64,000 nucleotides of DNA from Sphingomonas xinjiangensis. Its GTDB lineage: Bacteria; Pseudomonadota; Alphaproteobacteria; Sphingomonadales; Sphingomonadaceae. The stretch spans positions 1-64,000 of the forward strand of contig NZ_JACIJF010000002.1 in NCBI RefSeq assembly GCF_014199255.1. Direction: 5' to 3'. Below, piece by piece: positions 47,437 through 60,176 of this stretch (within the stretch, counting starts at the first letter, position 1; every line of letters starts with the position of its first letter). The notes beneath the pieces were generated by a model. It was not told where the DNA came from and made no database searches. It saw nothing but the letters and a program-made list of their open reading frames with translations. The translations under genes and the position numbers were made by a program.

Positions 47437-47464
47437 ATCCTCCCCGTAAGGGGAGGATTTTGTT
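47437..47464. terminator. Bidirectional terminator between convergent DUF885 genes
   Basis: ATCCTCCCC pairs perfectly with GGGGAGGAT around a GTAA loop, followed on the plus strand by TTTTGTT. It ends the rightward DUF885 pair. The stem sequence matches the outer end of the GC-rich repeats found further right, so it may be a member of that family. Confidence 0.75.
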
Positions 47465-52267: not shown

Positions 52268-52410
52268 GCCCTCTCCCCTTGCGGGAGAGGGAGGGGCCCG
52301 CCGCGCAGCGGTGGGAGGAGAAGGAGCGATTTGCAGTGCAAATTGCGCGGCGCATGCGCGCCGCTCACCCTCTCCAAGCTTCGCTATCCTCCCCCGTTCA
52401 GGGGAGGAGG
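52268..52410. repeat. GC-rich palindromic intergenic repeat (unit A)
   Basis: Two hairpin ends frame this unit: CCCTCTCCC/GGGAGAGGG at 52269-52291 and TCCTCCCC/GGGGAGGA at 52387-52408, with small dyads between them (TTGCAGTGCAA, GCGGCGCATGCGCGCCGC). Read on the minus strand, GAGGATAGCGAAGCTTGGAGAGGGT matches in parts unit B at 53717-53899, in opposite orientation across hmgA. The 284-base gap between hppD and hmgA holds nothing else apart from a short GCCGGG/CCCGGC stem at 52158-52174. Confidence 0.65.
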
Positions 52411-53716: not shown

Positions 53717-53899
53717 TCCCTCCTCCCCCTTTACGGGCGAGGATAGCGACGCTTGCCAGCCCGCTGGCTAGCGGAGCTTGGAGAGGGTCGCGAGCCACGG
53801 GCTCGCGCGGCGCGACGCGCCGCTCCCCCTCTCCCGCTGCGACTAACCGCAATACGTGCGCTACGTCTCGCGGCCTCCCCCTCAAGCGGGGAGGCAAAT
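53717..53899. repeat. GC-rich palindromic intergenic repeat (unit B)
   Basis: This unit runs from TCCCTCCTCCCCC through GCGAGGATAGCGACGCTT, GAGCTTGGAGAGGGT and CTCCCCCTCTCCC to CCTCCCCCTCAAGCGGGGAGG. It shares the GGATAGCGA...GCTTGGAGAGGGT core with unit A but is inverted relative to it. It fills the gap between hmgA and the Rieske gene, and its last bases may supply the latter's ribosome binding site. Confidence 0.6.
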
Positions 53900-55453: not shown

Positions 55454-55863
55454 AATCCTCCCTCGCCAGGGGAGATGGCGCCGAAGGCGACGGAGGGGGA
55501 GGCCAGCGATGCGCCTTGGACGATCTGAAACCAGCAGCCACACCGCCAAAGAACTTCGCCAGCAGATGACTCCGCCGGAAATTCCGCTCTGGCTTGCACC
55601 GCGGCGCAACGAAGCGGGACTGCGCTTACGCAAGCAGCATGCCGGCGGCCCTTATGTGCTCGATTTCTACTGCGCGCCGGCCAAGCTGGCGATCGAAGTC
55701 GATGGCGAGGCACATGCACGCGGTGGCCGGCCCAGGCGGGACGCGGCGCGCGACGCCTGGCCGAAATCGTGGCGATTACCTGGCGGGACGCGATCGAGAG
55801 CGGTCGCTAACCTCCCCCTCCGTCACGCTTACGCGCGCCACCTCCCCAGGCCGGGGAGGATCT
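55454..55863 (+). mobile_element. DUF559 cassette C: nuclease-like gene between inverted repeats
   Basis: The left end (55454-55504) and right end (55809-55863) are inverted copies of one GC-rich repeat. Both run from ATCCTCCC through GGGGAG, TGGCGC and CGGAGGGGGAGG, reading inward, with small gaps. They enclose a damaged DUF559 gene and nothing else, in the gap between ivd and the M13 peptidase gene. Compare cassette D at 59683-60176. Confidence 0.6.
55509..55810 (+). pseudogene. DUF559 (PD-(D/E)XK-like) endonuclease-domain gene, frameshifted
   Basis: The text TAKELRQQMTPPEIPLWLAP, then LRLRKQHAGGPYVLDFYCAP and KLAIEVDGEAHARGGRPRRD, is the DUF559 core, including the acidic DFYC...EVDG..H residues of this Vsr-like nuclease fold. 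At RRDAARDAW (about 55760) the frame breaks; the expected LAE continues in another frame and reaches TAA at 55808-55810. The last part of the domain is missing. The longer open frame to 56129 is antisense to the M13 gene and not real. Confidence 0.75.
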
Positions 55864-55867
55864 TAGA

Positions 55868-57940
55868 TCACCACACCTTCACCCTTCTCTCGGGCGCCAG
55901 GAACAGCTTCTGCCCCGCCTGCACACCGAACGCGCCATACCACGCGTCAAGGTTCCGCACCGTCTGCGCGCGGAAGCGCGAGGGCGCGTGCACGTCAGTG
56001 GCGATCCGCGCGCGGAGTTGCTGTTCGCGGCTCTTGTCGCGCCAGCTCTGCGCGAAGGCCAGGAAGAAGCGCTGGTCGCCAGTTAGCCCGCCGATCACCG
56101 GCGCAGGCTTCCCGCCAAGCGCGGCGTGATACGCTTCGTACGCCGCGGTCAGCCCCGCCACGTCGGCGATGTTCTCGCCTAACTCCTGCTTGCCGTTGAG
56201 ATGCAGCCCCGGCAACGCTTCATAGGCGTTATATTGCGCCACCAGCGCGGCGCCAGCGTCGTTGAAATGCGCCAAATCCTCCTTGGTCCACCAGTTGCGC
56301 AGCCGGCCACTGGCGTCGAAAGTCGATCCTAGATTGTCGAAGCTGTGGCTGATCTCATGCCCGATCACTGCGCCGATCGAACCATAGTTCGACGCCGCAT
56401 CGGCGCCCGGATCGTAGAAGGGCGCCTGGAGAATCGCCGCTGGGAAGTTCAGCGCGTTCTGCAGCGGCAGATTGACGGCATTCACCGTCTGCGGCGTCAT
56501 CCACCATTCGCCGCGATCTACCGGCTTGCCGATCTTGCCGAGCTGATGGCGGTATTCGGCCAGCTGCGCGCGGCGGAAATTGCCGACCGGATCGTCGGCC
56601 TTCACGTCCAGCGCGGCATAGCTGCGCCACTTTTCCGGATAGCCGACTCCGACCTGCATCGTCTCGATCTTGCGGCGCGCCTCGGCCTTGGTGGCGGGCG
56701 CCATCCAGTCGAGCGCGGCGACGCGCTTGTCGAACGCGGCGAGGATACCCTTCACCATCGTCTGGATATCGGCCTTGGACGAGGCGGGGAAATAATCCTT
56801 GGCGTAGAGCTGCCCCACCGCATCGCCCAGCCAGCTGTTCAGGCTGGCGATCGCCCGCTTGTCGCGCGCGCGCTGCTTGGGCGTGCCGCTCAGCTGGTGG
56901 CTGTAGAATTCGAAATGGGCCTGGTCGAACGCCGCCGGCAGCACATCGGTGACTTCGTTGATGCGGTGAAAGGTCAGCCAGTCCTGCCAGGTCTGGAGCG
57001 GCTCGCTCGCCACCAGCTTGGCGATACCGGCGACCGCGCCGGGCTGCCAGACGATGAAGTCCTGCTGCTGCGCCAACCCCGCCGCGTTCCAGAACGCACC
57101 CCAGTCGATGCCGGGCGCCTTGGCCGCGAAGTCTGCCTGCTTCCAGGGGTTGTTGGCCTTGCTCGCGTCCTGGCTGGTCACGATGTCGGCGTGCGCCCGG
57201 GCGATCTTGGTCTCCAGCTCGACGATCCGCTGCGCGCGTGCGTCGGGCTCGGTCACGTTGGCCAGGCTCAGCAGCTTGCCGACATAGGCCCGATACTGGC
57301 CGCGGACCTTCGTCATTGCCGGCGTGTCCGACACATAATAATCGCGGTCCGGCAGCCCCAGCCCGCCCTGGAGCAGATACGGCACGGTCGTGTCGGGCTT
57401 ACTCAGTGCCTGCGTTACAAAGATGCCGAACAGGTTCTCGGTCTCGAAATTCGTCGCGTTCAGGGGATCGACATCGGCGCGGATATTGCCGCCCAGCATC
57501 GCCGACAGCGCCTTCTTGTCCGCCAGCGAGGCGATCGCATCCATTTCCTCGCCCAGCGGCGCCAAGCCCCGCTGCTCGATCGCCGCGGTATCGGTATAGG
57601 CATTGTACCAATCGGCGATGCGGCGCTGGTCGCTGCCCACCGCCGCGTTCGCCTTCAGCGCGGCCTGGACGATTGCGGCGTTGTTCGCTTCGGCCTTGTT
57701 GAACACTTCCAGGAACACGCCGGTGCTCGAACGGTCGGCCGGGATCTCGGTCTTCGCGCGCCAGCCGCCATTGGCATATTCCTCGAAATCGTCGCCCGGC
57801 TTCACGCTCTTGTTCAATCCCGCCACATCGATGCCGATCCCCGGCTGGGTCGAGGCCGACTGGGTCTTGGCCGCATCACCGCCGGATGTGCAGGCCGTGG
57901 TGGCGAGCAGGGCAGCGAGCAGCAGGGCGCGATTGGGCAA
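55868..57940 (-). CDS. M13-family metallopeptidase lipoprotein
   Basis: M13 peptidases (neprilysin/PepO family) are zinc enzymes cutting short peptides. The 690-residue product has a lipoprotein signal (LLLAALLATTAC, lipobox TTAC). The N-terminal M13 domain begins with VKPGDDFEEYANGGWRAKTE. The zinc site is GAVIGHEISHSFDNLGSTFD (HEISH) near residue 535, with the third ligand in ELGENIADVAGLTAAYEAY; NALNFPAAILQAPFYDP precedes the site. TTG at 57940 is preferred, with GGAGAT before it; GTG at 57958 is possible. It interrupts the leucine cluster on the opposite strand. Confidence 0.9.
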   Translation of the reverse strand: MPNRALLLAALLATTACTSGGDAAKTQSASTQPGIGIDVAGLNKSVKPGDDFEEYANGGWRAKTEIPADRSSTGVFLEVFNKAEANNAAIVQAALKANAAVGSDQRRIADWYNAYTDTAAIEQRGLAPLGEEMDAIASLADKKALSAMLGGNIRADVDPLNATNFETENLFGIFVTQALSKPDTTVPYLLQGGLGLPDRDYYVSDTPAMTKVRGQYRAYVGKLLSLANVTEPDARAQRIVELETKIARAHADIVTSQDASKANNPWKQADFAAKAPGIDWGAFWNAAGLAQQQDFIVWQPGAVAGIAKLVASEPLQTWQDWLTFHRINEVTDVLPAAFDQAHFEFYSHQLSGTPKQRARDKRAIASLNSWLGDAVGQLYAKDYFPASSKADIQTMVKGILAAFDKRVAALDWMAPATKAEARRKIETMQVGVGYPEKWRSYAALDVKADDPVGNFRRAQLAEYRHQLGKIGKPVDRGEWWMTPQTVNAVNLPLQNALNFPAAILQAPFYDPGADAASNYGSIGAVIGHEISHSFDNLGSTFDASGRLRNWWTKEDLAHFNDAGAALVAQYNAYEALPGLHLNGKQELGENIADVAGLTAAYEAYHAALGGKPAPVIGGLTGDQRFFLAFAQSWRDKSREQQLRARIATDVHAPSRFRAQTVRNLDAWYGAFGVQAGQKLFLAPERRVKVW

Positions 57941-58061
57941 CGCTTGATCTCCGAACACGAAAACGCTGCGCGGGTGCTACTCCCGCCGCGCGTGCCACGC
58001 CAGTCCTTCCCAACCCGGTTCACCGCGTCTAGGACCACAGCCAAACGATAAAGGAGGATGC

Positions 58062-59663
58062 ATGAGCGCCCCGGTGCTCGATACCAAGGTCTCGGCCGAG
58101 AGCGAGACGTTCCGCGCCAACGCCGCGCACAACCGCGCGCTTGCCGAGCGCCTGCGCGGCGACGTCGCGCAAGCGGCGCTGGGCGGCAGCGACAAGGCAC
58201 GCGAACGCCACACCGCCCGCGGCAAGCTGCTCCCGCGCGACCGCGTCGAGCGCCTGCTCGATCCCGGCGCACCCTTCCTGGAGATCGGCCAACTCGCCGC
58301 CAACGGCATGTATGACGACGAGGTCCCCGGCGCCGGCGTGATCGCCGGTATCGGCCGCGTGTCGGGCCGCACCGTGATGATCGTCTGCAACGACGCGACG
58401 GTGAAGGGCGGGACCTATTACCCGCTCACCGTCAAGAAGCACCTGCGTGCCCAGGCGATCGCACTGGAGAACCGCCTGCCCTGCATCTACCTGGTTGATT
58501 CTGGCGGCGCCAACCTCCCCCACCAGGCGGAGGTATTCCCCGACCGCGAGCACTTCGGCCGCATCTTCTTCAACCAGGCGAACATGTCGGCACAGGGCAT
58601 CCCCCAGATCGCCTGCGTGATGGGCAGCTGCACCGCGGGCGGCGCCTACGTGCCCGCCATGTCCGACGAAAGCGTGATCGTCCGCAATCAGGGTACGATT
58701 TTCCTCGCCGGCCCACCCTTGGTCCAGGCCGCGACCGGCGAAGTCATCTCGGCCGAGGATCTGGGCGGCGGCGATCTGCATGCGCGCAAGTCGGGCGTGG
58801 TCGATCACCTCGCCGAGAATGACGAGCATGCGCTCACCATCGTCCGCGACATCGTCAGACACTTGCCCGCCGATCGCACCCCCGACCTCAAGCTGCTCGA
58901 TCCGCGCCCGCCCAGATACGCGCCCGAGGAGCTGTACGGCATCGTCCCCCAGGACGTCCGCGCGCCGTACGACGTCCACGAAGTCATCGCCCGCATCGTC
59001 GACGGATCGGAGTTCCACGAATTCAAGGCGCTCTATGGCAGCTCGCTGGTCTGCGGCTTCGCGCATATCTGGGGCATGCCGGTGGCGATCCTGGCGAACA
59101 ACGGCGTGCTGTTCAGCGAGTCCGCGCAAAAGGGCGCCCACTTTATCGAACTCGCCTGCCAGCGCCGCGTGCCGTTGCTCTTCCTCCAGAACATCTCGGG
59201 CTTCATGGTCGGCGGCAAGTATGAGGCCGAAGGCATCGCGAAGCACGGCGCCAAGCTGGTCACCGCCGTCGCCACCGCCACCGTGCCCAAGCTGACCCTG
59301 CTGATCGGCGGCAGCTTCGGCGCGGGCAATTACGGCATGTGCGGCCGCGCTTATGATCCGCGTTTCCTGTTCTCCTGGCCCAACAGCCGCATCAGCGTGA
59401 TGGGCGGCGAACAAGCGGCGAGCGTGCTCGCCACCGTCCACCGCGACGCAGACAAATGGAGCGATCAGGAAGCCGAAGCCTTCAAAGCTCCGATCCGCGC
59501 CAAATACGAGGACGAAGGCAATCCTTGGCACGCCACCGCGCGGCTATGGGACGACGGCATCATCGACCCCGCCCAAACCCGCGACGTCCTCGGCCTTGCG
59601 CTCGCCGCCACCCTCAACGCCCCCATTCCCGAACGCCCGCAGTTCGGCGTGTTCCGGATGTGA
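58062..59663 (+). CDS. mccB: 3-methylcrotonyl-CoA carboxylase, carboxyltransferase (beta) subunit
   Basis: This 533-residue subunit moves the carboxyl group from biotin to 3-methylcrotonyl-CoA in leucine breakdown. The family text includes [20 protein letters not shown] near residue 47, [40 protein letters not shown] near residue 190, [20 protein letters not shown] and [20 protein letters not shown]. The [12 protein letters not shown] region is typical of the methylcrotonyl rather than propionyl type. An AAGGAGG site precedes the ATG. Its biotin partner lies at 61165. Confidence 0.94.
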
Positions 59664-59680
59664 GGGACACAAGCGAGCCT

Positions 59681-60112
59681 TCAATCCTCCCCGAGCTTCG
59701 CTCGGGAAGGGGGTCCGCCCCGCCTTGCGGGGCGGTGGAGGGGCAAGCGCGAATGCGCGGTATCCAGTACCGCGCGTACTACAGCATCAAGGTCCTGAAG
59801 GAGCTCGCTAGCCGGTATGCGCAGCGTACCGATTCCTTCGGCTTCCAGCCACGCGTCTCCGCGGGAGTCGCGAACAGGCCTGCTGCCATATTCGTGCGCG
59901 GTACCGTCCACCTCCATCGCCAGCCGAGCGGCGATGCAGTAGAAGTCGAGGCTATAGGGTCCCGTTGGATGCTGTCGTCTGAACTTGAGCCCTTTAGGAG
60001 CACGACGGAGCACCTGCCACAGCAGCACTTCTGGCAAGCTCATGGTGCGTCGCTGTTGACGCGCCTGGTGCACCGTCCGACTGGTTCCCTTTGGCGATCG
60101 ATCCTTGAACAT
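59681..60112 (-). CDS. DUF559 endonuclease-domain protein, apparently intact
   Basis: The 143-residue product has the whole DUF559 domain: RTMSLPEVLLWQVLRRAPKG, LKFRRQHPTGPYSLDFYCIA, RLAMEVDGTAHEYGSRPVRD, and a final helix after WLEAEGIGTLRIPASELLQD. The DFYC...EVDG..H acidic residues fit the PD-(D/E)XK/Vsr-like nuclease fold. Its last 20 or so codons lie inside the left inverted repeat of cassette D, so repeat and gene are fused. It is opposite in direction to mccB. Substrate unknown. Confidence 0.8.
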   Translation of the reverse strand: MFKDRSPKGTSRTVHQARQQRRTMSLPEVLLWQVLRRAPKGLKFRRQHPTGPYSLDFYCIAARLAMEVDGTAHEYGSRPVRDSRGDAWLEAEGIGTLRIPASELLQDLDAVVRAVLDTAHSRLPLHRPARRGGPPSRAKLGED

Positions 60113-60176
60113 TCCGCAAGCCCCTCCACCATGCTTCGCATGGTCCCCCTCCCCGAGACAAGCTCGGGGAGGATCT
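59683..60176 (-). mobile_element. DUF559 cassette D: nuclease gene between 60-base inverted repeats
   Basis: The left end (59683-59744) and the right end (60120-60176) are inverted copies. Both read ATCCTCCCCGAGCTT, CGGG, AGGGGG, CC, a short hairpin, then GGTGGAGGGGC towards the gene. Only the DUF559 gene lies between them. The unit sits between mccB and an uncharacterised small gene. With cassette C it suggests a mobile unit of about 0.4-0.5 kb. Confidence 0.65.

Follow-up and report, generated by a model that had tools for sequence, protein, structure and literature searches.

The window analyzed here, namely 64,000 nucleotides of the Sphingomonas xinjiangensis genome (contig NZ_JACIJF010000002.1, positions 1 to 64,000), contains two short cassettes, C and D, in each of which a single gene of the DUF559 family (PF04480) is enclosed by inverted copies of a GC-rich repeat (Table 1). 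This arrangement had been proposed in an earlier sequence-only reading of the window, and it is borne out by the repeat coordinates and the Pfam matches, as is the sequence shared by the cassettes at their outer ends, which reads ATCCTCCC in all four repeats. In each repeat an outer and an inner hairpin are followed by a G-rich tail that faces the interior of the cassette; the outer of the two has a C/T-rich 5' arm. The matches to the DUF559 profile lie above the curated cut-off (20.6) both for D (E 2.6e-22, 79.2 bits) and for the remnant in C (E 2.6e-15, 56.7 bits, profile positions 4-77 of 109). Cassette D is intact, with an open gene and both repeats; as previously noted, the last codons of the gene lie inside the left repeat, its stop codon being just past the latter, while its ATG (60112-60110) lies 8 nt after the end of the tail of the right repeat. 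Of the frameshift and lost end formerly ascribed to C, the truncated and out-of-frame gene stands, whereas the right-hand repeat is present.

Table 1. DUF559 cassettes and related repeats in the window (REPIN, repetitive extragenic palindromic doublet forming a hairpin)
Feature	Position	Strand	Remarks
Left repeat, cassette C	55455..55502	+	Outer C/T-rich hairpin, inner hairpin (GAA loop), G-rich tail
Broken DUF559 gene, cassette C	55509..55760	+	Domain match 55536-55760; C-terminal part gone, out of frame
Right repeat, cassette C	55811..55861	-	Inverted; GTAA inner loop
Left repeat, cassette D	59684..59743	+	Contains final 20 codons of the DUF559 gene; inner loop CTT (not GNA)
DUF559 gene, cassette D	59681..60112	-	Open, 143 aa; Vsr-like PD-(D/E)XK nuclease motif intact
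Right repeat, cassette D	60121..60174	-	Inverted; GAA inner loop; tail GGAGGGG
REPIN-like pair	52269..52408	.	Two inverted hairpins with no gene between them, of the kind seen in C and D
Second REPIN-like pair	53721..53894	.	Gene-less, decayed
Solo hairpin	47438..47457	.	Followed by a run of T

Association of DUF559 genes with hairpin repeats

The sequence-only reading held that DUF559 genes and such palindromes belong together, and named a lack of these flanks at DUF559 genes elsewhere as the observation that would speak against it. On comparison the flanks proved to be present, and the association is strongly supported across the phylum, with a C/T-rich hairpin within 350 bp of the DUF559 gene at 206 of 209 loci and on both sides at 162 of them. 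By set, a hairpin was detected at 7 of the 8 loci of the S. xinjiangensis genome, at 83 of 83 from other genomes of the genus, 28 of 28 from across the phylum, 13 of 13 from a second genus, and 75 of 77 from named genomes, a set that may overlap with the unnamed ones (77 of its 80 loci had enough flank for the hairpin count and 78 for the inverted-flank score given below). The family occurs in 40 of the 41 congeneric genomes, each having at most 10 matches; together these genomes have 151 matches, including weak ones to large proteins, and 91 loci (8 own, 83 others) were analyzed. The loci are the best-scoring matches, with further ones from the top of the list, and weak DUF559 copies are therefore under-represented; loci shorter than 3,100 nt (4 of 87 congeneric ones, namely L026, L031, L036 and L134) were excluded from the flank counts.

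Random windows of the S. xinjiangensis genome contain a hairpin in 37 of 1,257 cases and hairpins on both sides in none. The corresponding counts of any hairpin in four other genomes, the samples of which still include their own DUF559 loci, are 55 of 574 (G009), 8 of 202 (G037), 13 of 188 (G023) and 16 of 188 (G002), and over all samples a single random window, in G002, has hairpins on both sides. The eight DUF559 genes of the 4.47 Mb S. xinjiangensis genome have hairpins on both sides in five cases and on one side in two; at the eighth (L007) the detector found none, a decayed repeat being visible upstream by eye. Of the 19 strict C/T hairpins in a 400 kb sample of this genome, 15 are not near any of the three DUF559 genes that the sample includes. 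With a density of about one hairpin per 15-21 kb, two close flanking copies are expected to be rare. It might be argued that the hairpins are ordinary terminator-like repeats near which DUF559 genes lie by chance or through a shared preference for gene ends, and some solo hairpins, such as that at 47438-47457, do resemble intrinsic terminators. This explanation is very improbable in view of the 162 of 209 loci flanked on both sides against 0 of 1,257 random windows, and of a copy number that tracks DUF559 in three samplings (see below); together with the flank scores, these data disfavor an origin by chance or from terminators only.

A fixed inverted-repeat score of at least 16 is reached at 6 of the 8 own loci and 79 of the 83 loci of other genomes in the genus, and in 13 of 6,512 sliding windows over 400 kb of the own genome, of which the top five (score 18 or more) all lie at 47.2-47.4 kb, the site of a putative pair of convergent related genes. 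At this threshold, inverted flanks are seen at 19 of 28 phylum-wide loci and at 57 of 78 loci of the named genomes, which include Xanthomonas, Pseudoxanthomonas, Mesorhizobium, Thiocapsa, Alcanivorax and metagenome-assembled genomes filed under other phyla. Among 21 mostly low-scoring loci, 10 have a hairpin pair on a single side, that is, a REPIN beside the gene. Flanked plasmid loci come from Deinococcus (two, scores 20 and 32), S. meliloti (102), Sphingomonas (24) and Qipengyuania (26), and those from Picosynechococcus (13), Synechocystis (10) and Azospirillum (12) fall below the threshold. At E. coli K-12 ycjD (L356, fabI-ycjD-sapF), C-rich repeats of this kind are confined to the 3' side, and the inverted repeat found 5' of the gene is a different one. 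The DUF559-hairpin association is firm for comparative genomics short of the strain level. In G260, a genome of 2 Mb in which main-pattern hairpins are few, a tandem series of CCCCTCTTTGCTAAAGAGGGG hairpins stands beside a DUF559 gene (L088, 1855-3028).

Anatomy of the repeat

An in-frame start codon follows the last G-run at 82 of the 102 loci with a scored repeat, at a median distance of 9.5 nt, and since the starts follow this closely, the G-rich tail may serve as the ribosome-binding site of the DUF559 gene. The inner loop is of three nucleotides in 114 of 138 distinct two-hairpin units, those from orthologous sites not being independent. These triloops are GNA in 93 of the 114 and the complementary TNC in none, as against 42 GNA and 48 TNC among 789 triloop hairpins at large in 400 kb; the outer triloops are GNA in 28 of 51, and the left repeat of D, with its CTT loop, is an exception to the rule. 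DNA mini-hairpins with a GNA loop (e.g. GCGAAGC), in which G and A of the loop form a non-canonical pair, are of extraordinary stability (PMC4686876). As the GNA loop is preferred on one strand, it points to a single-strand role of the repeat. Pairing is conserved across nine 46-nt units, with 15 of 15 pairs kept and both sides changed in 4 of them.

The DUF559 protein

Profile, modeled fold and residues agree with the earlier assignment of DUF559 as a PD-(D/E)XK/Vsr-like domain. The conserved D, E, (D)G and H residues are present in an alignment of 22 sequences, which is free of the constraint that applies to one motif analysis and to the type-link analysis below, where the reading frame was chosen by motif and some residues are invariant by construction. 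The predicted structure of the D protein (mean pLDDT, the predicted local distance difference test score, 83.7) retrieves 3hrl in Foldseek searches (E 1.5e-6), then, at rank 2, the homing nuclease I-Bth0305I (E 9e-5, with 3r3p among the matches), and the Vsr structure 1vsr at E 0.05 only. On this model the D protein is a predicted nuclease with one domain of the Vsr-like PD-(D/E)XK fold. It is not a Vsr proper: the NCBIfam vsr profile is unmatched by D and gives 16.7 bits for L094 against a cut-off of 97.85. Vsr itself nicks T-G mismatches. All 12 of 12 close pairs have ratios of nonsynonymous to synonymous substitution rates (dN/dS) of 0.09-0.46, indicating purifying selection, with dS saturated in some. 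Membership in a defense system was considered and rejected, as PADLOC returned weak DpdF matches only.

With the branch that holds Vsr and its relatives, D shares the family and, in the model, the fold. A 2005 study set YcjD, the E. coli member of DUF559, beside Vsr within the PD-(D/E)XK superfamily (PMC1189080), and the Caulobacter DUF559 protein VsrA, which causes an SOS response in cells without the methylase ScmA, has been proposed by those who described it to act as a nuclease in mismatch repair (PMC12907096); unlike in the present case, repeats go unmentioned in the parts of these two papers drawn on. Across loci, protein likeness goes with repeat likeness (mean rho 0.28 over 20 draws of one locus per neighborhood, median permutation p 0.005) in a sample of 61 loci in 24 neighborhoods, loci of score below 16 or of unclear strand being excluded.

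Hairpin copy number and the presence of DUF559

Hairpins were counted per genome with the pattern YCTCCCN{2,12}GGGAGR, its reversed form being the control. Over the 41 genomes of the genus, the number of DUF559 matches correlates with the excess of hairpins (Spearman 0.72; 0.67 per Mb), and the sole genome without DUF559 (G006) has 23 hairpins (control 4). Among 150 genomes of Pseudomonadota, 22 of 31 carriers are hairpin-rich versus 6 of 119 non-carriers, with a median excess of 104 versus 1 hairpins; carriers are defined here by a DUF559 match of E below 1e-8, and 15 genomes whose matches are all weak (E 1e-5 to 1e-3) are scored as negative. The corresponding figures for the own class are 18 of 22 carriers versus 0 of 16 non-carriers, and in families holding both states carriers are higher in 8 of 8, with small numbers in f23 and f25 (one genome a side). 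In the second genus (81 genomes), the 13 carriers have a median of 167 hairpins (range 18-307), and the 68 non-carriers, among which G444 (a contig-end fragment) and four genomes with weak hits are counted, a median of 6 (range 1-40), with 67 at 17 or fewer and one at 18 or more. In an rpoB tree of 40 of the 81 genomes, including 11 of the 13 carriers (G429 and G433 left out), most carriers fall in one clade. By reading of this tree, the contrasts inside the clade agree in direction, some weakly (G425 above G438; G461 above G415 and G445; G473 and its sisters above G411), as does the lone carrier outside it, G419, which is above its own clade.

Certain genomes are hairpin-rich without a clear DUF559 match (G267, G274, G289, G297, G302, G388 and, in the second genus, G438). 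In the rpoB tree G438 groups with a carrier as its sister, which would fit a recent loss of the gene.

A REPIN-like family with a Vsr-like nuclease as its probable partner

The hairpin-rich carriers and the flanked genes suggest, without proving it, that the nuclease drives hairpin spread. The most economical reading, which we regard as on balance probable, is that C and D belong, as gene-bearing members, to a family resembling repetitive extragenic palindromes (REPs) and REPINs, the partner of which is the Vsr-like nuclease DUF559, probably acting to spread the repeats. Several observations weigh against it. Excess hairpins in the genus also correlate with genome size (0.45) and with the control pattern count (0.53), and part of that trend is therefore due to size and base composition. 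In the phylum, 9 of 31 carriers lack an abundance of hairpins, which 6 of 119 non-carriers have, and as most carriers of the second genus form one clade, the independent contrasts are few. The ycjD repeat is matched at a median of 19 places per genome in E. coli, and since ycjD is missing from many of these genomes, the repeats evidently persist without the gene. Among 52 within-genome pairs of DUF559 genes, protein and repeat likeness show rho 0.05 (p 0.71), and repeats are no closer within a genome (0.32) than between genomes (0.35), which speaks against a tight match. Further, gene-bearing cassettes show no recent copies within a genome, and cleavage and movement of the repeats by DUF559 are inferred.

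The main rival, which we hold to be unlikely, reverses the causality, with DUF559 as a host nuclease of repair or hairpin processing that palindrome-rich genomes would keep for the removal or repair of extruded hairpins or mismatches, and that would have settled among the repeats because these are sites where insertion is tolerated. The SOS effect of VsrA in Caulobacter cells without ScmA and its proposed role in mismatch repair (PMC12907096), the Vsr-like fold of the model and the purifying selection on DUF559 are all consistent with such a function. Yet a repair enzyme has no need to sit between inverted repeats, which occupy both sides at 162 of 209 loci, nor is the tracking of protein likeness by repeat likeness across neighborhoods in its favor.

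Turnover of cassettes and repeats

Relatives of S. xinjiangensis provide a view of the history of the proposed nuclease-associated family at individual sites. In the comparison of G037 with G009 (aligned blocks 88-94% identical), a REPIN faces a solo hairpin at 3 of 6 junctions, with the same outer junction, by reading, at two. At the ivd site the M13 gene is still adjacent in 11 of 29 relatives, which by reading have a REPIN in three cases, a solo hairpin in four and neither in four. Downstream of mccB, a DUF559 cassette is present in 17 of 23 genomes (own included) and five are without one; in G235 the mccB-side cassette sits behind another stretch of ~375 nt. The mccB site of G102 has, by reading, two repeats around short remnants of both gene ends. 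These remnants, taken together with the alternation of REPIN and solo hairpin at the same sites, indicate that a cassette can give rise to a REPIN and a REPIN to a solo hairpin; the changes may also run the other way. The empty sites that the sequence-only reading suggested seeking at the mccB gap were found in part, with cassette-less sites in 5 of 22 relatives, but at 79-89% DNA identity none is base-exact, and they are too diverged for the junctions on which target-site duplication, the criterion for insertion sequences (ISs), depends.

The mccB site (59684-60174; L326-L344) is recurrent, with cassettes in both orientations, 10 minus (own included) and 7 plus. The two orientations correspond to two protein groups (mean identity 54% between and 66% within groups), which leaves a recent inversion of D between its repeats unsupported. 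In two relatives (L060, L064) a comparable position 3' of ivd is taken by other palindromic repeat families, around CTGAACTTGTTTCAG and CCCCGGACTTGTTCCGGGG.

The earlier suggestion of a small mobile element is borne out only in part. Among 121 loci there are no two like cassettes within one genome (80% identity over at least 200 nt), which rejects the cassettes as recently transposing units; with the purifying selection, the gene-bearing cassettes look old and mostly at fixed sites, the numerous form being the REPIN or solo hairpin. Three Pseudomonas-like loci (L091, L094 and L097) share a cassette; the stretch common to L091 and L097 is only 448 nt, and a move or a rearrangement is possible. 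E. coli ycjD does not provide a clean empty site, as other strains have the eef operon where K-12 has ycjD, between fabI and sapF (PMC12817139); the two gaps read in such strains hold no such repeat.

That relatives' sites variously hold a cassette, a REPIN, a solo hairpin or nothing also bears on homing, whereby the nuclease would cut at a repeat or a solo hairpin and repair from an allele having the cassette would copy it in, the repeats spreading otherwise and the gene alone making use of them. The catalytic domain of I-Bth0305I is the closest fold after 3hrl, and the position of the gene among repeats would fit insertion in its own predicted target. Homing is nevertheless quite improbable, since it leaves unexplained why hairpin number follows DUF559.

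Proposed mechanism and its implications

Under the preferred reading of DUF559 as the partner that spreads the repeats, the nuclease would recognize the extruded or single-stranded hairpin, with the one-strand GNA loop as the mark, and nick it, whereupon host replication or repair would copy the repeat to another place. The cassettes would remain in place as the engines of the process, working in trans. A cassette that loses its interior could become a REPIN, and a REPIN that loses the stretch separating its palindromes could become a solo hairpin; without DUF559, the repeats would no longer be replenished. A bolder and rather doubtful version is that DUF559 mobilizes very widespread palindromes without any REP-associated tyrosine transposase (RAYT), as a former mismatch-nicking enzyme that reads the sheared G-A pair of the GNA mini-hairpin, nicks one strand and drives copying. 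If true, this would be palindrome transposition by a PD-(D/E)XK nuclease in place of an HUH transposase. The link would provide a candidate substrate for DUF559, a widespread family whose name reflects its lack of a known function, and a candidate engine for the GC-rich palindromes that occupy the intergenic DNA of many genomes without the known REP-associated enzyme; REP spread without RAYT would become testable at the bench, and the DNA damage by VsrA in Caulobacter would acquire a second reading.

Comparison with known systems

Full-text searches of an open-access library, the scope of which excludes most subscription papers and all preprint servers, yielded no description of a link between DUF559 and repeats. 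The closest parallel is the REP/REPIN-RAYT (TnpA-REP) system or "REPtron", in which palindromes, single or in inverted pairs, have one or few low-copy nuclease genes between or beside them (PMC3116915, PMC3733652). The DUF559 system likewise has many dispersed palindromes, single and in inverted pairs, in intergenic places. However, its enzyme is of the PD-(D/E)XK Vsr-like type, whereas RAYT is a Y1 HUH transposase; its unit has two hairpins, a C/T-rich outer arm and a G-rich tail; and the GTAG foot of REPs is absent from nine aligned 46-nt units, the only repeat type checked. The earlier comparison with RAYT and REP thus stands as an analogy: the Y1 transposase profile PF01797, which covers every Y1 transposase beyond RAYTs, has no match in the S. 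xinjiangensis genome and none in 38 of the 41 genomes of the genus (3 being positive). Nor does Y1 mark hairpin-rich genomes, these being 14 of the 87 with it and 14 of the 63 without it among the 150 genomes, and a RAYT as hidden partner is accordingly disfavored.

ISs and miniature inverted-repeat transposable elements (MITEs) resemble the cassettes in having a gene between terminal inverted repeats together with gene-less derivatives, as at the G102 site. Unlike ISs, the cassettes have no recent gene-bearing copies within a genome among the 121 loci, and, unlike in both classes, the inverted ends of C and D are themselves hairpins. I-Bth0305I serves an intron-type element; D resembles it in the catalytic fold of its model, but DUF559 lies in a short intergenic cassette with its own inverted ends. 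Finally, the Rhizobium-specific intergenic mosaic elements (RIMEs) are GC-rich palindromic intergenic repeats of rhizobia, and the flanks of rhizobial DUF559 genes, of the form CCTTCTCCC...GGATGAGGGG, are like them by description.

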